A stretch of 64,000 nt of DNA from Spirochaeta cellobiosiphila DSM 17781 (GTDB lineage: Bacteria; Spirochaetota; Spirochaetia; DSM-17781): assembly GCF_000426705.1 (NCBI RefSeq), contig NZ_KE384554.1, positions 230,825 to 294,824 on the forward strand, given 5' to 3'. Below, piece by piece: positions 38,401-50,128 of the stretch. The translations under genes were made by a program, and so were the position numbers. Each line of letters opens with the position of its first letter. Positions within the stretch are counted from its first letter, which is position 1. Below the pieces are notes generated by a model. The model did no database searches, was not told the origin of the DNA, and saw only the letters and a program-made list of their open reading frames with translations.

Positions 38401-39627
38401 CTATTGAATAGGAATATAAATCGTAAAAGACACAAAAGATTCAGGGGCATCTTTTGTATAATCAATACCATTTTTTGCTTCAATCCACGAATTCTGCCTC
38501 TTTAGTAATTGTCTAGCAACATATAATCCCATACCATCACTCCAAATTTCTTCAGCCAGTGTTTTAGGTTCTTTTGGAATTGTATAAAACAAATCAAAAA
38601 CCATTTCTGAATACTCATAAGGTATACCTACAATTGTCCCATGAGTTAGAGGTAAATTCCTAACAGATATTTCCACAAAAGCTTTATTTTGGTGCCAATT
38701 AACATCCCATAAAAAGGTGATTTCGCTATTATCAGGAGAATACTTGATTGCATTAATGATTAATTCATGAAACACTCGTTTAAAGTAAGATAAATCTAAT
38801 TGGAGAGAACCTTCTGAAAAAGTAGAACATCTATTTAGTTTAATGTCTCTTCCATATTTTTTGAACATATCATCCAGATTATCAATGTATTGCTTCATCT
38901 CATGAAATGACTCTAAAACAGATATTTTATCTTCACTTAACTTGATGGAATTGATCTGAGAAATAAAACTGATCTGATCATAGACCCTTTGATATTTTTC
39001 ATTACCCTGGATAATCATATCTACTAAAGATTTTTGTATTTGATAATGGTCATCGTCTATTTTCGTTATACCATTTTTAAGCATCTCTAATAAAAAGAAG
39101 GCACCCGATTGATGGATAGTTCTAGTAAACAATTCCATGAATTGTTCTGTTTGTTTTATATCCTTGTTAGCATATAGCCCCTTCCAATTAACTATGGATT
39201 GGGTCTCTAAATGCCGAATCTCTTTTTCCTTTTCCACTCTATCTACAATTCGTTTTATCTTGAATTCCTCAATTGTCTTTTCAATACGAAATAAGAGAGT
39301 ATCCTTACGGATAGGTTTCATTACAAAATCCTGAGCTCCTAAACGCATCATATCAATGGCAGTTTCCAGGTCAGAATTAGATGTTAAAAACACAAAAGGA
39401 ATTGCATATTTATTCTCTCTTAATTTCTTTAGAAATACTTGTCCATTCATATTAGGCATAAAATAATCTGATAAGATAAGATCTACATCATCCCTTTCTT
39501 CAACCAGATCTAAAATAATCCGGGCATCCTCATAGATTTCCACATGATATCCGGCACCCACTAGAATATCTTCTATAAGCTTCAGGGTAATGACATCATC
39601 ATCAACAACTACAACTTTTTTCTTCAT
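38401..39627 (-). CDS. Response regulator with C-terminal histidine-kinase-like ATPase domain
   Basis: The 408 residues consist of a receiver domain (1-120; Asp9-11, phospho-acceptor Asp54 in ILSDYFMP, Thr82-type switch in FVFLTSN, Lys in FVMKPIRKD), a helical linker (120-260) and a GHKL ATPase domain (about 280-405; N-box HELIINAIKYSPD, G-box DGMGLYVARQLL). A clear HisKA phospho-accepting His is not obvious in the linker. It may be a receiver-regulated ATPase or a kinase with a divergent dimerisation domain. Its ATG overlaps the stop of the giant hybrid kinase by 4 bases, and GGAG precedes it. Probably the direct phosphorylation partner of that kinase. Confidence 0.88.
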   Translation of the reverse strand: MKKKVVVVDDDVITLKLIEDILVGAGYHVEIYEDARIILDLVEERDDVDLILSDYFMPNMNGQVFLKKLRENKYAIPFVFLTSNSDLETAIDMMRLGAQDFVMKPIRKDTLLFRIEKTIEEFKIKRIVDRVEKEKEIRHLETQSIVNWKGLYANKDIKQTEQFMELFTRTIHQSGAFFLLEMLKNGITKIDDDHYQIQKSLVDMIIQGNEKYQRVYDQISFISQINSIKLSEDKISVLESFHEMKQYIDNLDDMFKKYGRDIKLNRCSTFSEGSLQLDLSYFKRVFHELIINAIKYSPDNSEITFLWDVNWHQNKAFVEISVRNLPLTHGTIVGIPYEYSEMVFDLFYTIPKEPKTLAEEIWSDGMGLYVARQLLKRQNSWIEAKNGIDYTKDAPESFVSFTIYIPIQ

Positions 39628-42600
39628 AAAATCTCCAATAACATTTTTTCTATTATTTGATATTCAGACTGAAGTAGCCCAAACAATTTATCATATTCAA
39701 GATCTTCTTTATTTTTGGCAGCCAGCTCAATTTCACTGGCTATGGAACCAATATCGTCTAAACGCAAATTTAATGCCAAACCTTTAAGCTTATGGGCTAT
39801 CATATGAACTTGGTCCAAATCTTCATGTTCGATAGCAGAACCTAAATCATCAATGAATTCTTTCTTACGTGAGATAAACTCTTGAAAGAGTAGATCAAGT
39901 GTTTCAATTGAGATCCCTAGGACTTTAGCTGTTTCCTGTCGATTGAGTTTGTCTCCCTGATTCTCAACTGATAAATACTTCTGAACTATCATTACTAAAG
40001 ATTCCATTTCAATAGGTTTGGATAGATAATCATCCATACCTATATTCATAAACCTTTCTTTATCTCCTTTGATAGCATGAGCTGTTAGAGCAATAATGGG
40101 ACAATGCTGCTGTTTTGCTTTTCTTTCATATTCTATAATTAGTTGAGTAGCCTCCTCACCATCCATTTCAGGCATTGAGATATCCATAAAAATCATATCA
40201 AAATCATTATTCTGTCTGGACTCAATGGCATGCAATCCATTAGGAGCTAAACTTACAGTTAAACCTAATTCTTCTAGCATTATTTTCATAAGATTTTGAT
40301 TGATCTCATTATCTTCTACTACTAATACATGACCTTTTAATTGAGAATTATCTTCTGTATTGGTACTTTGTGGAGTTACAGTATGAGTTCCATTAATAGC
40401 AGTATGGATACAATCAACTATATTGGTTAAGAAGTGTGGATAATTGAGTACAAGGGAGTCAGATTTTTTTGTATTTACATGATGATCATTGATAACAAAA
40501 AGAGGAACATTATTACTGTTTAATTGTTTTATTTTATCAGTATTTACTGGGATATTTTCTATTACAAGCAAATCATAACTGCTGATATCAAGAGGTATTT
40601 CTTTCATAGTTTCTAACTCTTTTGAAAACACTGTTAAATAATGCTTAATAAAAGTAGGAAGTTTTGAGCTTTCACTATCTATATAGGCGACCCTTTGAGC
40701 TTTAATGCCAATACTTGATTGATAAGATAGGGCCGCTTCTGGTTTATCGAATTTGATATCAAAATAAAATAAACTTCCTTCATTCTGCTCACTCTTAAGT
40801 TTTAACTTACCACCCATAATTTCTGTTAAGCTTGCACAGATAGCCAGACCTAACCCGGTACCTCCAAACTTTCTACTAATGCTACTATCTGCTTGATGGA
40901 AACTATCAAATATACTCTTCTGTTGTTCCTTAGGGATTCCTATTCCATTATCCTTAACAGAAAATTCTAAAACAGCATAATCTTCTCCCATATCTCCTAA
41001 ACGTATAGAAATTTGAATGGAACCCCCATTTTTAGTGAATTTAACGGCATTACTCAACAAATTGGTAATAATTTGCTTGAGTCTTAAGGGGTCTCCCAAT
41101 AAGAGAATAGGTAAGCCAGGATCAACAAAAAAATGAATAACAATATTCTTTTCCAATGCTCCAGCTATAAAAAGCTCGACAATGTGTTCAAATTCTGTAA
41201 TAGGATTAAAAGGTATAGACTCTATCTCAAGTTTCTGGCTTTCTATTTTTGAAAAATCTAAAATATCATTAATAATGGCAAGCAGATTTTTAGCACTGGA
41301 CTTAATCGTATCCACAAATTCCTTTTGCTGAATCGCCAAACTGGTGTTACTCAGAAGACCTATAAATCCTATAATTCCATTAAGAGGAGTCCTTATTTCA
41401 TGGCTCATATTAGCCAGAAAACTTGACTTAGCCTGTTCTGCTGCCTTTGCTTCTTTCAATGCCTTGTGTAAATCGGTTATATCATGGCTAACTGCGACAA
41501 GCTCAACGACCTCAGCTGTCTCATCATAGATAGGGATAACACTTGATTCCAGGACATAAAGTTCCCCATCTCTATTGATATTTTCAATAACACCATGCCA
41601 GTTCTTTCTACTGCTAGTGATTCCTTGAGTGGGATGAAATATTTCTTTAGCAGTATCATCACCAATAAAATCAGCTATAGGCCTGCCAATAGCTTCCCAT
41701 ATGGTATAACCTGTGATTTCATAGAACTGACCATTAGCAATGGTTATAATACCTTCTGGAGTGCATCCTATAACCATCGCTGATTCATCCAAAGCAGTCT
41801 TATACCCTATTAGGTAATTATTAGATTTAACAAGAGCCTTTTCCTTTTCCTTACGTTCAGAAATATCTCTAATCAGAAAGGTATGATACTGTTTCTTGCC
41901 GATATTCCAGGAACTATAAGACAAATCACAATCAAAACGTAATCCATTTTTTCTATAGGCAAAAGACTCATATATTTGTTCTACAAATAAGCCGTTTTCC
42001 CCTTTTTTTTGAGTATAATCTAACCACTCAGGTAGAATGATTTCAACATTTGTATTTATAATCTGATCGGATTTGTATCCAAATATATTCTCTGCGCCAG
42101 AGTTCCAAAAGAATATTTTACCACTCTGGTTTGCAAACAAAATTGCATCAGTAGCAGATTCAGATATAGCTTTAAATTTCTTTTCAAGCTCTTCATACTT
42201 TTCTTTTTTTCGATGCAACGGATACTGTAAATAAATGATAATGATTGTGATAATAATGAAGATAATTAATAAAATAAAAACTATCTTTCTCCACCAGAAA
42301 GGCTTTATATTTATGTAAACCTCTTTTGATTCATCTAACCAATTATCATTTTGATCTTTTAGTTTTAATTGAAAAGTATAATTCCCCGTACGTAAATTCT
42401 TATATTCCACATAGTCATTAATGTCTGAGTAATGCCATTGATCTTCAAACCCTTTTAGACGGAAAGCTAATTGAAAATGCTGAAGTGATTGGTCTTTTAG
42501 ATAACCGTACCTTATCATTATTGATTCATCACTATACAGTTCAAAGCCCTGTGTTAAAGTATTAAAGTATTCCTCTGTTATATTCCTTTTCATTAAAGAT

Positions 42601-44393
42601 ACTTTATCTATATAGATAGAAGGTTTATGAAATTCCTGATGCCTGTCTTCGTTAAGGCGATCTATTAATAATCCCTTTCTAGTATTTATTAAATGATGAT
42701 CATCACCCATATCAGCAAAAGAAATCCCTTTTGTTATCTCCATATCATGCATATAGCTTTGCACTGATATCGTATCTAAGGAATTATCCATTTTGTAAAC
42801 ATTTATGCTATCGAGAGAAGAAGAAAGAAGCTGGTCACCCCTCCACAACAATTGATAATTGTTGTTACGTATATTTTTATCAACCTTTTTAAACTTATCC
42901 GTTTTGAAGTTGTACACTGCAATTCCAGCAGCTTTAAAAGACATCCAAATACGGTCTTCTTTATCTAGGTAATAACTATCAATCGGTGAACTAGGAAAAA
43001 GATCAAAAGAAATATTTCTGAACTCATTCAACCTACCCTTTTTCAAGATATAATTGCTATCGTTCTCAGTAAAAATACAAATACCATTTTGGGGAAATGG
43101 AATAATATTCAAAATCTTATTATCAATATAAAATTTACGACTACGATTATAAGCAACTTCAAAAATAGTATTGTCACTAGTCAAAACATAAAGATCATCC
43201 GAGTACACAGATTCCTTAATGAATGCCTTATCTACTTCAAGCATAGTCCTAATGGTGTTAGTATCCAAACTGTAGTATATAATTGAATGTGGATACTGTA
43301 AAATCATAGCCCTGTCATATATCAACGTTTTTAGAGGTACACCTAAATCGGGATACATGATTTGCTTTTTATTATCTTGCAAATTAAGCAAAACGAGATT
43401 GGAGAGACTATCGATATAATAAATGTCATTGTTCTTGGAATCAAAATGTAGGACAGCTTTATAGTCATCGGAATTAAGAATATATTTGTTGACATTACTC
43501 ATCCCATTGATAGCTAAGTAACTAAAATTATTATCCGAATAACTCCATATCGTCTGAAATTCATCAATAAAAAGCCCTTCTACGTCATAGATATTTCCAT
43601 TAAAAACTTTTTCCAGTTTGTCGTCCCTATACATAAGGACATTTCCATCCAAGGTTGTACAAATTAGTCTATCTTGATCGAAGCCTTTTATTTGTGTGAC
43701 GATATAATCACTATCGATAGTTAAATTCTTGTTATCTGTAAGATGGACTAGTCCATTATTGACAGTCGCAACATATAAGGAACTTGGAGACTCAATGTAG
43801 ACGTCATAAAAGTCATTATACTCCTTCCAGTCTTCAGGGAACAACTCTATAGGGGTTACCCTATTTAACCAGAATAACTTCCCATTTTTACTAATATATA
43901 TCTGGCCATTTGATAAGAATATGGTTTTATTGGAATTATCACTATAGATGTTAATAATTGGTCCATCAGCATATCTGTATAAATCAGTCGGTGTACTTAA
44001 ATACAATAAATCAGAACTCTTATCATAATAGAGATGTTTAATATTTTTACCAAATAGATTGATATCCCTTTCTAAATAAAACTGTCCCGATAATTGATTA
44101 AATTCATAGAGAGTCCCTTCATTATTTAAGATGAGTATATTATCATCATTTGTAATTACTATTTCTGTTAAATACCCATCATAACGATACTTAAATACTT
44201 CAAAATGATTAGTTGTCCATCGTAACAACCCCTTAGATGTCAATAGCCAGACCATACCATCTTCAGTACGTTTAATATCCAGAATGCTCTGATTACTAAA
44301 GACATTTGGAGTTCTTGATATTTCAATATTTTGAGAGAAAGCAACAATTGTATTGAATATTAATAGTGCTACAACAATTATTCTTTTATTCAT
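39624..44393 (-). CDS. Hybrid histidine kinase: periplasmic beta-propeller, PAS, HisKA, ATPase, two receivers, HPt
   Basis: About 1589 residues in one chain: signal sequence (MNKRIIVVALLIFNTIVAFS); a periplasmic two-component propeller with repeats such as RTEDGMVWLLTSKGLLRW and DKEDRIWMSFKAAGIAVYN; a Y_Y_Y domain (FRLKGFEDQWHYSDINDYVEY); a membrane helix (VFILLIIFIIITIIIIYL); two PAS domains; HisKA with MSHEIRTPLNGI; an ATPase (DNGIGIP, GTGLGLAI); a receiver-like segment that lacks an acceptor Asp (SSYDLLVIENIP); a canonical receiver (FDMIFMDISMPEMDG); and an HPt domain with MIAHKLKGLA. The ATG at 44391-44393 is chosen because it begins the signal sequence, 7 bases after the upstream stop. 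The propeller type usually senses sugars or envelope ligands. Confidence 0.93.
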   Translation of the reverse strand: MNKRIIVVALLIFNTIVAFSQNIEISRTPNVFSNQSILDIKRTEDGMVWLLTSKGLLRWTTNHFEVFKYRYDGYLTEIVITNDDNILILNNEGTLYEFNQLSGQFYLERDINLFGKNIKHLYYDKSSDLLYLSTPTDLYRYADGPIINIYSDNSNKTIFLSNGQIYISKNGKLFWLNRVTPIELFPEDWKEYNDFYDVYIESPSSLYVATVNNGLVHLTDNKNLTIDSDYIVTQIKGFDQDRLICTTLDGNVLMYRDDKLEKVFNGNIYDVEGLFIDEFQTIWSYSDNNFSYLAINGMSNVNKYILNSDDYKAVLHFDSKNNDIYYIDSLSNLVLLNLQDNKKQIMYPDLGVPLKTLIYDRAMILQYPHSIIYYSLDTNTIRTMLEVDKAFIKESVYSDDLYVLTSDNTIFEVAYNRSRKFYIDNKILNIIPFPQNGICIFTENDSNYILKKGRLNEFRNISFDLFPSSPIDSYYLDKEDRIWMSFKAAGIAVYNFKTDKFKKVDKNIRNNNYQLLWRGDQLLSSSLDSINVYKMDNSLDTISVQSYMHDMEITKGISFADMGDDHHLINTRKGLLIDRLNEDRHQEFHKPSIYIDKVSLMKRNITEEYFNTLTQGFELYSDESIMIRYGYLKDQSLQHFQLAFRLKGFEDQWHYSDINDYVEYKNLRTGNYTFQLKLKDQNDNWLDESKEVYINIKPFWWRKIVFILLIIFIIITIIIIYLQYPLHRKKEKYEELEKKFKAISESATDAILFANQSGKIFFWNSGAENIFGYKSDQIINTNVEIILPEWLDYTQKKGENGLFVEQIYESFAYRKNGLRFDCDLSYSSWNIGKKQYHTFLIRDISERKEKEKALVKSNNYLIGYKTALDESAMVIGCTPEGIITIANGQFYEITGYTIWEAIGRPIADFIGDDTAKEIFHPTQGITSSRKNWHGVIENINRDGELYVLESSVIPIYDETAEVVELVAVSHDITDLHKALKEAKAAEQAKSSFLANMSHEIRTPLNGIIGFIGLLSNTSLAIQQKEFVDTIKSSAKNLLAIINDILDFSKIESQKLEIESIPFNPITEFEHIVELFIAGALEKNIVIHFFVDPGLPILLLGDPLRLKQIITNLLSNAVKFTKNGGSIQISIRLGDMGEDYAVLEFSVKDNGIGIPKEQQKSIFDSFHQADSSISRKFGGTGLGLAICASLTEIMGGKLKLKSEQNEGSLFYFDIKFDKPEAALSYQSSIGIKAQRVAYIDSESSKLPTFIKHYLTVFSKELETMKEIPLDISSYDLLVIENIPVNTDKIKQLNSNNVPLFVINDHHVNTKKSDSLVLNYPHFLTNIVDCIHTAINGTHTVTPQSTNTEDNSQLKGHVLVVEDNEINQNLMKIMLEELGLTVSLAPNGLHAIESRQNNDFDMIFMDISMPEMDGEEATQLIIEYERKAKQQHCPIIALTAHAIKGDKERFMNIGMDDYLSKPIEMESLVMIVQKYLSVENQGDKLNRQETAKVLGISIETLDLLFQEFISRKKEFIDDLGSAIEHEDLDQVHMIAHKLKGLALNLRLDDIGSIASEIELAAKNKEDLEYDKLFGLLQSEYQIIEKMLLEIL

Positions 44394-44400
44394 TACTTTG

Positions 44401-45624
44401 TTAGAATGAAGCTTTACGTGATCGAGTAATCTTTTCCATTTTTCTAAAATATTTTGCTTGTTTTTCAATTTCTTCAATATCACTTATAAATATTTTGTTA
44501 TCCACTTCTCTAAGATTTTTATTTTTCATCAAATCAATCATTACAGCCCTACCTTCGGCCATAGGAACCCCTATCATATTTATAAGATCTTCCTTACCAA
44601 ACTCAAAGGTATAACTACTTCCACTTTTAATAGGTACTCTAGCTTTTTCGAGCTGTATTAACAGAGCATCATATAGTCTTCCTAAAGGCTTTTCCATTAT
44701 AGCATTAGCTAACTGTTTATATATAAACCATATACGCTCTGCTAATAAAGTAGTTAAGCGAGAAATAATTTGTGGCTGCGTCGTTACCATTCTTTCAAAG
44801 TTAGCTTGGTTCACAGCTAATAAGACAGCATCTTCATAGGCTTCAGCTGATGCTGATCTAGCTTTTTTTTCAATCAAAGCCATTTCACCAAAAATATCAC
44901 CAGTCTTTAATATGGCTAACATGACTTCCTGATTATCTACAATCTTGGAAATCTTCACACTACCCTTTTGGATTATATATAGCTCATTTCCCGGTTGCCC
45001 TTCAGAAAAAATCATTGCTTCTTTTGGATATTCCCTAGTAAAAACCTCGCTATCATCTTCAAGATAAACACTTTTAGCATAAGGCTTTATCCTCCTAACC
45101 CTATCTAAAGCTGTTTTAACATTCTTACCATCTGGACAGAATTTCAAATATTGATGATAGGCAAAGTAGGCCTGATTATATTTATTGTTTTTGGCATAAT
45201 ATTCTCCCACAATAAATAGATGATTTAGATCGATTTCAGCTGTGCTCTTAAAAGTTAAGCGGGTTAATGCTTCATCAAGGAAACGCATACGTTTAGAAAA
45301 ACTCTGAATAATTTTCATAGCAACTGGAGTATTACGTTCTATCAGTAATCCATATTGTTCTTGATGAACGGCAATCAATGTAACATCTGTCAAAGCTTGA
45401 GCCGTCTCAATATGACTATGGGAGGACATGGTTGATACAACACCAAAAAAGTCACCAGGCTCCAGGATGTTTCCCCCTTCCTCTTCAACGACTTCAACTT
45501 CTTTACTTACCCTAACAGTACCAGAACGGATGATGTAAAAGTATTCAGCCCTATGCTTCCCTTCTACTATGATATACGAGTTTTTTTTGAAAGATTGAAG
45601 TGCCAGTTGTAATGGGTTATGCAT
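44401..45624 (-). CDS. Regulator with two cyclic-nucleotide-binding domains and a C-terminal winged helix
   Basis: The 407 residues hold a first cNMP-binding-type domain (about 10-115; GDFFGVVSTMSSHSHIETAQA, without the Glu and Arg that hold the cyclic nucleotide), a helical TPR-like linker (about 130-200, YYAKNNKYNQAYFAYHQYLKFCP) and a second domain (about 205-320). The second has an intact phosphate-binding cassette FGEMALIEKKARSASAEA. A C-terminal helix-turn-helix-like region (about 340-395) follows. So domain 2 probably binds cAMP or cGMP and domain 1 does not. It lies 7 bases upstream of the hybrid kinase gene, in the same transcript. Confidence 0.88.
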   Translation of the reverse strand: MHNPLQLALQSFKKNSYIIVEGKHRAEYFYIIRSGTVRVSKEVEVVEEEGGNILEPGDFFGVVSTMSSHSHIETAQALTDVTLIAVHQEQYGLLIERNTPVAMKIIQSFSKRMRFLDEALTRLTFKSTAEIDLNHLFIVGEYYAKNNKYNQAYFAYHQYLKFCPDGKNVKTALDRVRRIKPYAKSVYLEDDSEVFTREYPKEAMIFSEGQPGNELYIIQKGSVKISKIVDNQEVMLAILKTGDIFGEMALIEKKARSASAEAYEDAVLLAVNQANFERMVTTQPQIISRLTTLLAERIWFIYKQLANAIMEKPLGRLYDALLIQLEKARVPIKSGSSYTFEFGKEDLINMIGVPMAEGRAVMIDLMKNKNLREVDNKIFISDIEEIEKQAKYFRKMEKITRSRKASF

Positions 45625-45680: not shown

Positions 45681-47198
45681 TCAACGTGGAACCTTAACGC
45701 TAAAGTCACCTATTAATTTGATCTCAGTATCTTCCAAGGATTCGATGGAATTATTATACCCCTCAAAGTAATCCCCATATTGATTTAACAAATGCACATT
45801 CCAGTCATTGTTGTTAATCTGTGTACCTTCAATGATTTCATCATAACAGCCAAAAGGTAAATAAACTTTATTACTGGGAGCAAATCCTGAATAATTAGAA
45901 TCAACAGCTTGCTGACTGGGATCTACTATAATCCACCCAGCTCCAACCAGGAATATTTCAACCCAAGAATGGTTCTTAGTATTACCTTCCATGTCCATAA
46001 TCATCCCTGAAATAACTCTAGCAGGAATATGAGCATTACGCATTAATGCAGCGTATATTTGATTATATCCCATTGGATTACTACGACGAGTGCTAATCTG
46101 TTGATCTACAGGAAGTTCGTCTGTGGTATAGGCTTGTCTTTTTAACAGGTAGTTATAACTATTAACCGCTATGTTATAAGGATTAGTATACCTTCCTTGC
46201 GTATATTCCCTTATAGAAGTTATAGAAGCATTACCAGCAGGTACAATCTCTGTGTTTTTGAGGTAAGGAGCAAAATAGTCATCATTTTTATCTATAAGGA
46301 TGTTAGGAAGAGAGCTTAAATCGTGCCAGGAGACCCTTTGAAGCTCGATCATCATGTTGTAACTAAATTCTTCTCTATTAGATTGAGAAGTCTTTGACTG
46401 CACATAATGTCCCCTTAGTTCATAACTTTTATTAGCACCAATGATTTCCCAATTCCCAATTCCCACAAAATCATCCTGGGCATTAATTCTAACAATACCC
46501 TTAGGATGGGACAATACAAAATGTTTATTATATATTATCGTTTTGAAGTTTTCCTTTTGAACATACTGATTAATTTTTGTTTCAAAATTTATAATGTTAG
46601 AAGATTTATTATTTTGTACCAGGCTTATGCCATTAGCCGCAAAATCACCTAACCAGGTAAAAACGATAGAATTATCTGTCCAGGAATGTATCCACTCAAT
46701 AGGAATGACATAATTATTATCTACACCGCTTAGAAAGATTTTACCAGAACGAAAACGGGTTAAGTCATCCCCTTCCAATGTGACAAAACTACCTAGTTGA
46801 GCGGAAGAAGGTCCTATCTTGGTTAATAAAGGAATATTTTCATTTATAGAGACTAAACTTGGAAATTCACCATTATTAGCTACTATAACACCTCGACTTG
46901 CACCATTATCAGTATTAACAATCAATACTCCAGTGCTAAAATTGTCGGGAGCTACAAATCTAATAAGATTTTTATCCCATTCTGTTATTTGCTCTTTTAA
47001 TATTCTATCTCCATCAATAGTTAAGTATCCTTTTCTGCCAAAAGAATTACCTCTCACTTGAACATCCATTCCCGGCTGAATACTTTTTGGTTCAACCGAC
47101 AAGATATGAGGCTTTTGTCTAGTGATATAGAGATTAATAAGAAATATACCAATAACAATGGCTATAAAAATTAGTGATATTTTAGGGATCTTTTTCAT
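45681..47198 (-). CDS. Membrane-anchored TIG/transglutaminase-like protein lacking the catalytic Cys
   Basis: A 505-residue protein with an N-terminal anchor (SLIFIAIVIGIFLINLYI), two IPT/TIG Ig-like domains (about 30-105, PHILSVEPKSIQPGMDVQVRG; about 125-205, LLTKIGPSSAQLGSFVTLEG) and a transglutaminase-core region near 380-455. In the core NPMGYNQIYAALMRNAHIPAR aligns with the active-site helix, but no Cys is at the nucleophile place. The His (KNHSWVEIFL) and Asp (GWIIVDPSQQ) of the triad remain. The only Cys in the protein is in FGCYDEI. ATG at 47196-47198 has GGAAG about 5 bases upstream. It is the last gene of the sigma/anti-sigma operon. Confidence 0.85.
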   Translation of the reverse strand: MKKIPKISLIFIAIVIGIFLINLYITRQKPHILSVEPKSIQPGMDVQVRGNSFGRKGYLTIDGDRILKEQITEWDKNLIRFVAPDNFSTGVLIVNTDNGASRGVIVANNGEFPSLVSINENIPLLTKIGPSSAQLGSFVTLEGDDLTRFRSGKIFLSGVDNNYVIPIEWIHSWTDNSIVFTWLGDFAANGISLVQNNKSSNIINFETKINQYVQKENFKTIIYNKHFVLSHPKGIVRINAQDDFVGIGNWEIIGANKSYELRGHYVQSKTSQSNREEFSYNMMIELQRVSWHDLSSLPNILIDKNDDYFAPYLKNTEIVPAGNASITSIREYTQGRYTNPYNIAVNSYNYLLKRQAYTTDELPVDQQISTRRSNPMGYNQIYAALMRNAHIPARVISGMIMDMEGNTKNHSWVEIFLVGAGWIIVDPSQQAVDSNYSGFAPSNKVYLPFGCYDEIIEGTQINNNDWNVHLLNQYGDYFEGYNNSIESLEDTEIKLIGDFSVKVPR

Positions 47199-47646
47199 CA
47201 AGCTTCCGTAGAATAATTTCAAGTTCAATTATATAGTCGCCAGTCGCTGAAATTCCTAGCGGATAGTAAAAAAGTGCTTCATTAGGATGTATTTTTAGAC
47301 TCTTAAATACAGTTTTGTACTGAGCTGTATTATCCTCTTTATACCACATCTGACCCTGAGCTATTAATAAATAAGAACCATCCTCCTGAAGATAGGGGGT
47401 TAAGGATGTTTTTAGCTTTAAGGTTTTTCCTTCCAAAGTAAATAGGACGGCTCTGCCTGGTAAAGTTATTTTGGATATTTCCCCACTCCAAAGCCCCTGT
47501 TCAGGGATGTTCATTTCAGCTTCCACCTTCAGAACAACAGCTTTAGATTTTAGTTCATCCCATAAATCTTTATCCACATCTTGACCAAAGGCATTCATAA
47601 CTGTCAAAAGTAATAGGCAAGTGTTGATTAAGAAATGTCTACTCAC
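47182..47646 (-). CDS. Secreted protein of unknown function in the sigma-factor operon
   Basis: A 154-residue product with a signal peptide (MSRHFLINTCLLLLTVMNAFGQ). The mature part has beta-rich sequence (LWSGEISKITLPGRAVLFTLEGKTLKLKT, YLLIAQGQMWYKED) and no domain I know. It could be a small periplasmic partner of the neighbouring TIG/transglutaminase-like protein. The start is GTG at 47644-47646, overlapping the anti-sigma stop as GTGA; the 3' end overlaps the following gene by 17 bases. Confidence 0.78.
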   Translation of the reverse strand: MSRHFLINTCLLLLTVMNAFGQDVDKDLWDELKSKAVVLKVEAEMNIPEQGLWSGEISKITLPGRAVLFTLEGKTLKLKTSLTPYLQEDGSYLLIAQGQMWYKEDNTAQYKTVFKSLKIHPNEALFYYPLGISATGDYIIELEIILRKLDEKDP

Positions 47647-48182
47647 TTTCCAGAATTCCCCTTAAAAGAGGCGGATCGTAAGAACTCAGGATTACCGTAA
47701 GTTTTTATAGGCATATCTGTAGGGATTTCCATAGTGTTCTTGGAGTTAAGGCCTTGTTCGGCTTCCATCAACTCTAAAGCAAGATCTACATCCTGAACAT
47801 TAGCATTCATGGAAAGATTATTCAAAAGATCCCCTGAATTCTGGGCTGAAGAATTCATTCCATTCCAAAAATTAATCCCTCCTAGAGCAAACAAAGCTGC
47901 TGCGGCAACCGTTACCAAGGGAGCTGGAATATTGATGGATTTATGCCAGAACATTCCCCTTTTTGGTGAGGATCTAACAATATCGTTGAATCTATCCATA
48001 TCAGGTTCCTTCATTGTAAGAGCTTCATTATCCTCACTCATTAGAACCTTTAGATTCTTCAGGCTTAAGTATTCCTGTTTACACTCTGGACACGAGTCAA
48101 TATGTTCCTTTATTTGATGATCCCAAGGAGTAGGAACTTCATTATCCAGATAGGCTGATAGTAAAGTTTTATCAGGGCACAT
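47643..48182 (-). CDS. Zinc-finger anti-sigma factor, membrane anchored
   Basis: The 179 residues start with a ZAS-type domain: CPDKTLLSAYLDNEVPTPWDHQIKEHIDSCPECKQEY, with the H-x3-H-x3-C-x2-C-like metal ligands around 26-38. A single transmembrane helix follows (about 90-110, APLVTVAAAALFALGGI) with a periplasmic tail. This is the layout of anti-sigma factors that hold an ECF sigma factor at the inner membrane. The ATG at 48180-48182 has AAGGAG 8 bases upstream, inside the last codons of the sigma gene, with which it overlaps by 11 bases. Confidence 0.92.
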   Translation of the reverse strand: MCPDKTLLSAYLDNEVPTPWDHQIKEHIDSCPECKQEYLSLKNLKVLMSEDNEALTMKEPDMDRFNDIVRSSPKRGMFWHKSINIPAPLVTVAAAALFALGGINFWNGMNSSAQNSGDLLNNLSMNANVQDVDLALELMEAEQGLNSKNTMEIPTDMPIKTYGNPEFLRSASFKGNSGK

Positions 48183-48690
48183 AGACTTCTCCTTGATCAA
48201 TAAGATCAGCTAATTGTTTTCTTGCTCTAAACATACGCACCTTCACATTTCCCTCTGATATATGCAATGAATCAGCTATTTCCTGATAGGAAAAACCAGC
48301 GTACTCACGCAAAATCAAAATAGTTCGAAGCTTATGAGGCAACTTAAGCAGGGCTTCCTTAACGATCTCTTTTGTTTCATCTTTAAGCGTATTTTCTTCT
48401 CCCTCGTTTTTTGAGTCCTTTTTAGGTTCTTTAAAATAACGCTCATAGGCCCTTCTTTCTCGCCCCTTACGTTTCTCTTTATTGAGTGACAAGTTTTTGA
48501 CTACCCGGATAAGCCAGTAAAGAGCTTCTTTTCCCTGTGGTAATGACTCCATCCTTTCGTAGTACTTTATAAAAGCTTCTTGAACAACCTCCTCCCCAAC
48601 ATCCTGATCACCACATATCTTAATGGCAACTTTATTAAGAAGAGAATAATTGTCTCGATATATCTTTTCAAATACGGATACATCACTCAT
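48172..48690 (-). CDS. ECF-type RNA polymerase sigma factor
   Basis: About 172 residues: sigma region 2 (VFEKIYRDNYSLLNKVAIKICGDQDVGEEVVQEAFIKYYERM), a charged linker and region 4 (LPHKLRTILILREYAGFSYQEIADSLHISEGNVKVRMFRARKQL) with a clear helix-turn-helix. It would direct RNA polymerase to envelope-related promoters when released from the anti-sigma factor encoded next. The frame is open to TTG at 48702; ATG at 48690 gives a sensible N-terminus, but AGGG 13 bases away is distant, so the exact start is uncertain. It is 28 bases after cysS. Confidence 0.93.
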   Translation of the reverse strand: MSDVSVFEKIYRDNYSLLNKVAIKICGDQDVGEEVVQEAFIKYYERMESLPQGKEALYWLIRVVKNLSLNKEKRKGRERRAYERYFKEPKKDSKNEGEENTLKDETKEIVKEALLKLPHKLRTILILREYAGFSYQEIADSLHISEGNVKVRMFRARKQLADLIDQGEVYVP

Positions 48691-48718
48691 ACTAAACAAC
48701 AAACCCTAACACAGCAGG

Positions 48719-50128
48719 TTACACTTTTTTCCATTGTGCACCTTGTGGAGTATCTATTATTTGGATTCCTTGTTTTAACAATTCATCCCTTAATTGATCA
48801 GACTTAAGAAAGTCTTTATTTTTTCGAGCGTCTTCCCGTTCTCTTATCAATTGTAACAGTTTATCATCGAGAGGCTCTTCAACAACCTCAACGTTTTCTA
48901 GTGCTTCTAATCCAAGTCCCAATATTCCGTCCATATCGTAGAGAACAGCTAACTTTTGTTCTGGTAACATATTTTTTGCCTTAACTGTTTTCCATACAAC
49001 ACTTAGCGCTCTAGGCATGTTCATATCCTGATCCAAAGCAGCATTAAACTCTTCAATGATAAGCTTTCCAGTCTCATCCAGGATAATAGATCCTGTTACT
49101 TTGGATTTGAATTCCAAAACCTTCTTCTCTAAGTTTTTACGGGCTTTTTTTGCACTATCCAAACTTTCATAAGTGAATATCAGCTGAGAACGATAATGTG
49201 CACCTAATAGAAAATACCGGTAATCCATTGCTTCATAACCCATATCTTTGAGCTTTTGCAAAGTTAAGAAATCACCTTTGGACTTAGACATTTTACCTGT
49301 TTGATCTAATAAAAATTCCCCATGAAGCCAGTAATTTACCCAAGATTTCCCAGTAGCCCCTTCTGTCTGAGCAATCTCATTGGTGTGATGAACAGGTATG
49401 TGATCAACACCACCACAGTGAATATCAAATTGTTCTCCTAAATACTTAGTACTCATGGCAGAACATTCCAAATGCCATCCAGGATATCCTTTTCCCCAGG
49501 GAGACTCCCATTGCATAGCCTGATCTTCAAACTTGGACTTAGTGAACCAGAGAACAAAATCTCTGGGATTTTTTTTAGCAGTATCAATATCTACACGAGC
49601 ACCAGACATTAATTCCTGACGATCTAATAATGCCATCTCACCATAACTAGTAAATCCTTCGGTATCGTAATACACGTTACCTTCACTTACATAGGTCAGA
49701 CCCTTCTCTTCCAATTGTGATATTAAGTTCTGCATATCCTTAATGTGATCAGTGGCTTTACAGACCACTTGAGGAGTTTTTATATGTAAAGAATCAATAT
49801 CGCTAAAAAAAGCATTGGTAAAATGTTCTGCAATTTGCCAAACATTCCACCCCTTCTCTCTAGCACTCTTTATCATTTTATCTTCACCGTCATCACCATC
49901 ATCAGATAGATGGCCAACATCGGTTACGTTCATTACATGTTTTACAGTATATCCATTTCTTTCCAAGACTCTTCTAAGAATATCTTCAAAGAAATAAGTT
50001 CGCAAATTACCAATATGAGCAAAATTATATACCGTTGGCCCACAACAGTACAAACCGACCTCATCCTTATTAATAGGTTTAAAGTCTTCCATGGTTCTAT
50101 GTAGTGTATTATAGAATTGTAAGGCCAA
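48719..50128 (-). CDS. cysS: Cysteinyl-tRNA synthetase
   Basis: Charges tRNA-Cys. The zinc/cysteine-binding Cys and HIGH-type motif are in LYCCGPTVYNFAHIGNLRTYFFEDIL; further zinc ligands are in HLECSAMS and HCGGVDHIPVHHTNE. KMSKSKGDF lies near residue 279. The 469-residue length is normal. The start is TTG at 50126-50128 with AGGGAGG 6 bases upstream; no in-frame ATG is close. The sigma/anti-sigma/envelope genes follow on the same strand. Confidence 0.97.
   Translation of the reverse strand: MALQFYNTLHRTMEDFKPINKDEVGLYCCGPTVYNFAHIGNLRTYFFEDILRRVLERNGYTVKHVMNVTDVGHLSDDGDDGEDKMIKSAREKGWNVWQIAEHFTNAFFSDIDSLHIKTPQVVCKATDHIKDMQNLISQLEEKGLTYVSEGNVYYDTEGFTSYGEMALLDRQELMSGARVDIDTAKKNPRDFVLWFTKSKFEDQAMQWESPWGKGYPGWHLECSAMSTKYLGEQFDIHCGGVDHIPVHHTNEIAQTEGATGKSWVNYWLHGEFLLDQTGKMSKSKGDFLTLQKLKDMGYEAMDYRYFLLGAHYRSQLIFTYESLDSAKKARKNLEKKVLEFKSKVTGSIILDETGKLIIEEFNAALDQDMNMPRALSVVWKTVKAKNMLPEQKLAVLYDMDGILGLGLEALENVEVVEEPLDDKLLQLIREREDARKNKDFLKSDQLRDELLKQGIQIIDTPQGAQWKKV

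Follow-up and report, generated by a model that had tools for sequence, protein, structure and literature searches.

A predicted autoregulated sigma factor operon with a pseudotransglutaminase gene in Spirochaeta cellobiosiphila and other Spirochaetia

Operon structure and distribution

A stretch of 64,000 nucleotides (nt) from Spirochaeta cellobiosiphila DSM 17781 (NCBI RefSeq assembly GCF_000426705.1, contig NZ_KE384554.1, positions 230,825 to 294,824), here referred to as the window, contains a four-gene operon encoding an extracytoplasmic function (ECF) sigma factor, a zinc-finger anti-sigma factor, a small exported protein and a TIG/transglutaminase protein. The product of the third gene is called SMALL and that of the fourth the pseudoenzyme. 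In window coordinates, the genes are:

48172..48690, minus strand: ECF sigma factor, 172 amino acids (aa) from its ATG; Pfam matches Sigma70_r4_2 (E 2.5e-18) and Sigma70_r2 (E 3.7e-9)
47643..48182, minus strand: zinc-finger anti-sigma factor, 179 aa, adjoining the sigma gene; zf-HC2 match above the cut-off (E 3.3e-6)
47182..47646, minus strand: SMALL, exported, 154 aa, with a signal-peptide-like N-terminus
45681..47198, minus strand: TIG-TIG-pseudotransglutaminase, membrane-anchored, 505 aa; Pfam match Transglut_core (E 1.5e-14)

The initial annotation had described four genes with overlapping frames at 45681-48690, and all four are present on the minus strand. The frames of the sigma and anti-sigma genes overlap by 11 nt, those of the anti-sigma gene and SMALL by 4 nt, and those of SMALL and the pseudoenzyme by 17 nt. 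The first of these overlaps, together with the Pfam matches, supports the assignment of a sigma/anti-sigma operon. Only regions 2 and 4 of a sigma factor are present, as matched by Pfam, and sigma identity across the class Spirochaetia is 40-53%. The anti-sigma factor has a single hydrophobic stretch at about residues 85-103, read from hydropathy as a membrane span.

A search for the same gene order in other genomes, as the initial annotation had suggested, found that it recurs across the class. Loci were gathered by a degenerate-pattern search with a sigma alignment; the counts are of loci rather than species, some genomes having entered by two routes. Among the 113 sigma loci with enough flanking DNA, all four genes are present in 74. 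SMALL alone is missing from 23, nearly all of which are Treponema-type, both SMALL and the pseudoenzyme from 12, and the pseudoenzyme alone from 3, while in 1 the anti-sigma factor scored under the threshold. Given this class-wide recurrence, the gene arrangement in the window is far beyond chance.

The incomplete loci separate the parts of the operon. In three related loci (L096, L097 and L119) the pseudoenzyme gene is cleanly gone, with SMALL followed directly by the gene that lies behind the pseudoenzyme in relatives; sigma, anti-sigma, SMALL and the C-terminal motif of the anti-sigma tail are all retained. A Sphaerochaeta-like family also has the sigma/anti-sigma pair without the pseudoenzyme. 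SMALL was absent genome-wide in all 11 of the 11 checked genomes that lack it at the locus. In the T. pallidum-type genome (L194) only the sigma and anti-sigma genes are left, after cysS; neither SMALL nor the pseudoenzyme was found there, nor was the tail motif. This sigma gene is assigned from gene order to the TP0092 position, and the gene after it (L194:8107-8754) matches the anti-sigma profile at E 4e-14, with zf-HC2 slightly under the cut-off, and is presumably TP0093. Borrelia-type chromosomes (L162-L164) have only the pseudoenzyme left, between cysS and glyA, which from gene order we take to be the BB_0600 position; no sigma of the operon family, anti-sigma or SMALL was found in the Borrelia-type genomes tested.

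The minus-strand order in the window is cysS, sigma, anti-sigma, SMALL, pseudoenzyme and a double cyclic-nucleotide-binding protein. The operon is nearly always placed behind cysS class-wide, and the downstream protein is 45-70% identical and nearby in most loci:

48719..50128, minus strand: cysS, the conserved upstream neighbour, its position retained in nearly all loci
44401..45624, minus strand: protein with two cyclic-nucleotide-binding domains (PF00027, 1e-40), the usual downstream neighbour

Conservation of the flanking genes would also be expected of a cluster co-inherited with cysS and murB with no functional linkage. This is very improbable, as the frames overlap, the promoter described below lies precisely before the sigma gene, and the anti-sigma tail motif has been lost together with SMALL. 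Elsewhere in the window (39624-44483), a gene of this spirochaete encodes a 1619 aa hybrid sensor kinase, whose domains are sensor propeller, Y_Y_Y, PAS, receiver and Hpt.

Predicted promoter of the sigma gene and its predicted targets

The junction between cysS and sigma carries a conserved element with the family form TGTAAC-N15/16-TTGTT[T/A], which in the window is:

48698..48723, minus strand: predicted autoregulatory ECF promoter, with a -35 TGTAAC (48718-48723), a 15 nt spacer and a -10 TTGTT (48698-48702)

A second TTGTT is at 48695-48699. Of 104 loci, 90 have TGTAAC 5' of the sigma gene, where chance would give 5-8, and 94 have the full element when a slightly looser form (TGTAAC or GTAAC with a TTGTT-like -10) is included. 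A scan for GGAAC-type ECF promoters found none upstream of the sigma gene. In loci where the sigma gene starts with ATG, this usually lies 3-6 nt behind the -10, and the predicted transcripts would therefore have little or no leader. Autoregulation of the operon from this predicted promoter is part of the explanation that is considered the most probable overall.

The strict promoter pattern has 39 matches in 12 Treponemataceae genomes, of which 28 are intergenic and 26 are just before a gene. A reversed control pattern in these genomes has 27 matches, 1 of them intergenic and 0 before a gene. As the total counts differ only modestly, it is the placement before genes (26/39 versus 0/27, Fisher p 9e-9) that carries the result, although some of the matches are common to related genomes and hence are not independent. 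The downstream genes include the sigma gene itself. Of these genes, 20 out of 26 score as exported, compared with a background of 34 out of 106; the 20 include at least one false call, glgA for glycogen synthase (L312).

A gene for a SurA/PpiC-like chaperone lies downstream of the element in six cases (G136, G099, G143, G128, G023 and G044), with a further site near the consensus in G119 and weaker ones in G110 and G076. A DegP/HtrA-type protease gene is downstream in two genomes. Other downstream genes encode LolA-like and NlpE-like proteins, an M15 carboxypeptidase, pallilysin, CAP and several lipoproteins. Because the promoter precedes genes of chaperone, protease and lipoprotein type, the sigma factor resembles a sigmaE. 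The envelope-stress role that had been proposed from the window sequence thus gains support from the conserved promoter and, within the Treponemataceae, from the predicted targets.

A pallilysin-domain gene in a Treponema-type genome (L342) has the promoter element, and the pallilysin protease family may be under the control of this sigma factor. Related ABC-transporter ATPase genes have the element upstream in three families (L205; G078, L354; and G143, L308). The L205 site is in the window genome and is one base off the strict form, ending in TTGTTG. In the same genome, the element precedes a gene for an exported protein of 161-175 aa without a known family (L218:1501-2078).

The anti-sigma tail, SMALL and the pseudoenzyme

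The periplasmic C-terminus of the anti-sigma factor ends in a motif with the family form LP..F..GEPxLIRAADY:

47664..47732, minus strand: anti-sigma tail motif, residues 151-173, MEIPTDMPIKTYGNPEFLRSASF

A profile of this motif trained on eight loci gives the window protein 14.0 bits. Its median score is 28 bits where SMALL is present (62 other loci) and 0.8 bits where SMALL is absent (35 loci), and the difference was reproduced in random half-splits with held-out loci. The N-terminal zinc-finger half is retained in both groups, at 63 and 51 bits respectively. The split is strong but imperfect: scores are low in a few of the loci that have SMALL, and reach 9-11 bits in two that lack it. The motif is gone from the 23 loci that have the pseudoenzyme without SMALL and is kept in the 3 that have SMALL without the pseudoenzyme. 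These patterns are suggestive of a tail motif that tracks SMALL and not the pseudoenzyme, and SMALL is probably the better candidate partner for binding the anti-sigma factor. Three anti-sigma factors (L042, L045 and L050) are without part of the zinc-binding residues, therefore zinc binding is not universal in this family.

No Pfam family was matched by SMALL. Its AlphaFold model, a confident one (predicted local distance difference test, pLDDT, 91), consists of a helix at the N-terminus followed by a beta sheet of antiparallel strands. The best matches in the PDB are weak and partial, to secretins (E 1.6e-3) and to LolA-type proteins (E 0.03, TM-score about 0.3), and were not used.

The transglutaminase domain of the pseudoenzyme has the following residues at the catalytic positions:

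46074..46076, minus strand: Pro375, in the position of the catalytic Cys, from alignment to a paralogue, out-of-class relatives, 3isr and TgpA
45969..45971, minus strand: His410, at the catalytic His place, retained, from alignment
45921..45923, minus strand: Asp426, at the catalytic Asp place, retained, from alignment

Pro375 is numbered in the 505 aa protein and is Pro385 of the 515 aa open reading frame. The Cys column is fixed by the Cys-bearing paralogue in the same genome, by relatives from outside the class, and by the solved structures 3isr and TgpA (6g49). The loss of the nucleophile reported in the initial annotation extends to the whole family: none of the 125 aligned members, close homologues included, has Cys at this place, which is Ala in 53, Ser in 51, Pro in 15, Val in 2, and His, Asp, Asn and Gly in 1 each. 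The catalytic His is retained in 112 of 124 members and the Asp in 123 of 124.

Some proteins labelled as pseudoenzymes turn out to be active, and the retention of His and Asp in most members would be consistent with an enzyme that uses another nucleophile, for example the Ser of 51 members. It is hard to credit such an enzyme here. Ser and Ala have interchanged at least 15 times on the transglutaminase tree, and the place also holds Ala, Pro and the other residues listed above, therefore Ser was rejected as a replacement nucleophile. A Cys located 8 residues further on in some members also occurs beside the true Cys in Cys-bearing relatives.

With a threshold of E 1e-10, the family profile has matches in 256 of the 393 genomes from the phylum. 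Cys-His-Asp is present in each of the three examined matches from outside the class. A first tree of the transglutaminase core had very long branches and left single and multiple losses of the Cys unresolved. In a second tree, which omitted nine very long rows including the Borrelia-type row, a branch separates 34 family members from three Cys-bearing relatives that belong to other classes (SH-aLRT, the Shimodaira-Hasegawa-like approximate likelihood ratio test, 95.9). Since the family forms one clade, the Cys was most likely lost once, before the class radiated; this single loss covers the rows in the tree and not Borrelia, where Ser is at the Cys place (L162-L164). An ancestral loss predicts Cys in distant relatives outside the class and outside the operon. 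Two adjoining TIG-transglutaminase-type genes with intact Cys-His-Asp are present in another class of the phylum (L169:825-3387) and are possible living relatives of the ancestral enzyme.

Two TIG modules had been claimed for the window protein. Two Ig-like modules are present, as judged from the match of the family profile to a CGTase-type TIG domain and from the AlphaFold model, and relatives have two Pfam TIG stretches; Pfam did not itself call TIG in the window protein. The model (pLDDT 74.5) has a transmembrane helix at 6-26, the Ig-like modules and a transglutaminase core. Foldseek matched it to IPT/Ig proteins and to 3isr (E 2.9e-8, TM-score about 0.45 by target length). The explanation considered most probable overall takes the pseudoenzyme to be an ancient non-catalytic membrane-anchored protein with a binding role.

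The initial annotation had suggested this protein as the detector of a peptidoglycan or protein ligand; as the primary sensor it would signal to the anti-sigma tail. Its membrane anchor and periplasmic modules, the overlapping four-gene order and the retention of the fold with His and Asp throughout the class would suit such a role, and in the 23 loci without SMALL it could act on the anti-sigma factor. However, it is cleanly gone from three related loci in which sigma, SMALL and the anti-sigma factor with its tail motif are intact, it is absent from the Sphaerochaeta-like and T. pallidum-type genomes that have the sigma/anti-sigma pair, and the tail motif is not tied to its presence. Borrelia-type genomes have the pseudoenzyme without the sigma factor. 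Because the Borrelia-type and T. pallidum-type genomes kept opposite parts of the operon, the pseudoenzyme is probably not an essential sensor, and a primary sensory role is unlikely.

The persistence of the pseudoenzyme without sigma in Borrelia-type genomes, and the large share of exported proteins among the predicted targets, would also fit a model in which SMALL and the pseudoenzyme are made under the sigma factor purely for envelope maintenance, with no feedback on it. This is somewhat less likely still, given that the translational overlaps are tight and that the anti-sigma tail motif accompanies SMALL.

Proposed mechanism and comparison with known systems

The best explanation, which is held with reasonable though not high confidence, is a class-wide autoregulated envelope-stress sigma operon of the sigmaE/RseA kind, in which SMALL acts on the anti-sigma tail and the pseudoenzyme has an accessory or output role. 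The zinc-finger anti-sigma factor would hold sigma at the membrane, and envelope damage would free it. From TGTAAC-N15/16-TTGTT, free sigma would then drive transcription of its own operon and, in the Treponemataceae at least, of the SurA-like, DegP-type, LolA-like, NlpE-like and lipoprotein genes. Exported SMALL most likely binds the periplasmic tail of the anti-sigma factor, as a stabiliser or a sensor in the manner of RseB. The pseudoenzyme would be an accessory or output that recognises an envelope ligand and is not obligatory for the sigma switch. The gene order, the Cys loss, the conservation of the promoter, the placement of its targets and the tracking of SMALL by the tail motif are all readings of sequence.

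Several results weigh against this explanation. Outside the Treponemataceae the strict pattern finds mainly the sigma gene and little else, and in the window genome a wide-spacer pattern (N14-18) has 18 matches compared with 20 for the control; only the strict pattern, judged by placement, is informative. SMALL changes state about three times on the sigma tree, as independent losses, therefore its association with the tail motif is not significant once corrected for relatedness. Foldseek of SMALL against the PDB, RseB included, returned nothing at E below 0.001.

More tentatively, an exported beta-rich protein may read the anti-sigma tail while a dead transglutaminase fold serves as a second ligand-binding arm, the reduced pathogens having kept opposite halves: sigma and anti-sigma in the syphilis type, and in the Lyme type the pseudoenzyme, perhaps now with a sigma-independent envelope function.

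The system had been proposed as undescribed, which holds only in part. A literature search, with most subscription papers outside its reach, turned up no account of the four-gene operon or its dead transglutaminase. The T. pallidum sigma factor is already published: TP0092 is described as the sole ECF sigma factor of T. pallidum, RpoE-type and with a mapped regulon (PMC7309211, PMC4222731). What is new is the TGTAAC-N15/16-TTGTT[T/A] promoter and the predicted Treponemataceae targets. This promoter can be compared with the published T. pallidum binding data, and would provide a sigmaE-like circuit for spirochaetes, a group in which little is known of envelope-stress control. Also of interest is a family of pseudoenzymes that has been retained across an entire bacterial class although the nucleophile is gone, with natural gene losses separating the parts of the operon.

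TP0092 belongs to the same sigma family and likewise follows cysS, with a zinc-finger-like anti-sigma factor behind it; compared with the full operon, its locus has lost both SMALL and the pseudoenzyme, as well as the tail motif. The protein at the BB_0600 position has TIG and an inactive transglutaminase fold as in the operon family, at a locus without the sigma, anti-sigma and SMALL of the full operon. BB_0600 of Borrelia burgdorferi is mentioned only as a CGTase-type domain protein (PMC2845121). A single ancestral operon seems to have left behind the sole ECF sigma factor of T. pallidum, the apparent anti-sigma factor next to it, and BB_0600. TgpA (PDB 6g49) and 3isr have the core fold and His/Asp motif in common with the operon family and differ in having the catalytic Cys. 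The TIG-transglutaminase proteins of other classes (L169 and L170) have nearly the same core motif at the site and one Pfam TIG. Opposite to the operon family, they have intact Cys-His-Asp and no sigma operon adjoining in the available DNA.

The closest functional parallel is sigmaE/RseA/RseB of E. coli, which likewise has an ECF sigma factor, a membrane anti-sigma factor and an exported third operon protein; its autoregulation and its targets of the SurA, DegP and lipoprotein type resemble those predicted here. Unlike the E. coli system, the spirochaete anti-sigma factor is of the zinc-finger (ZAS/zf-HC2) type with a short tail, and the operon adds a TIG-pseudotransglutaminase, a TGTAAC/TTGTT promoter, and a SMALL without a match to RseB.

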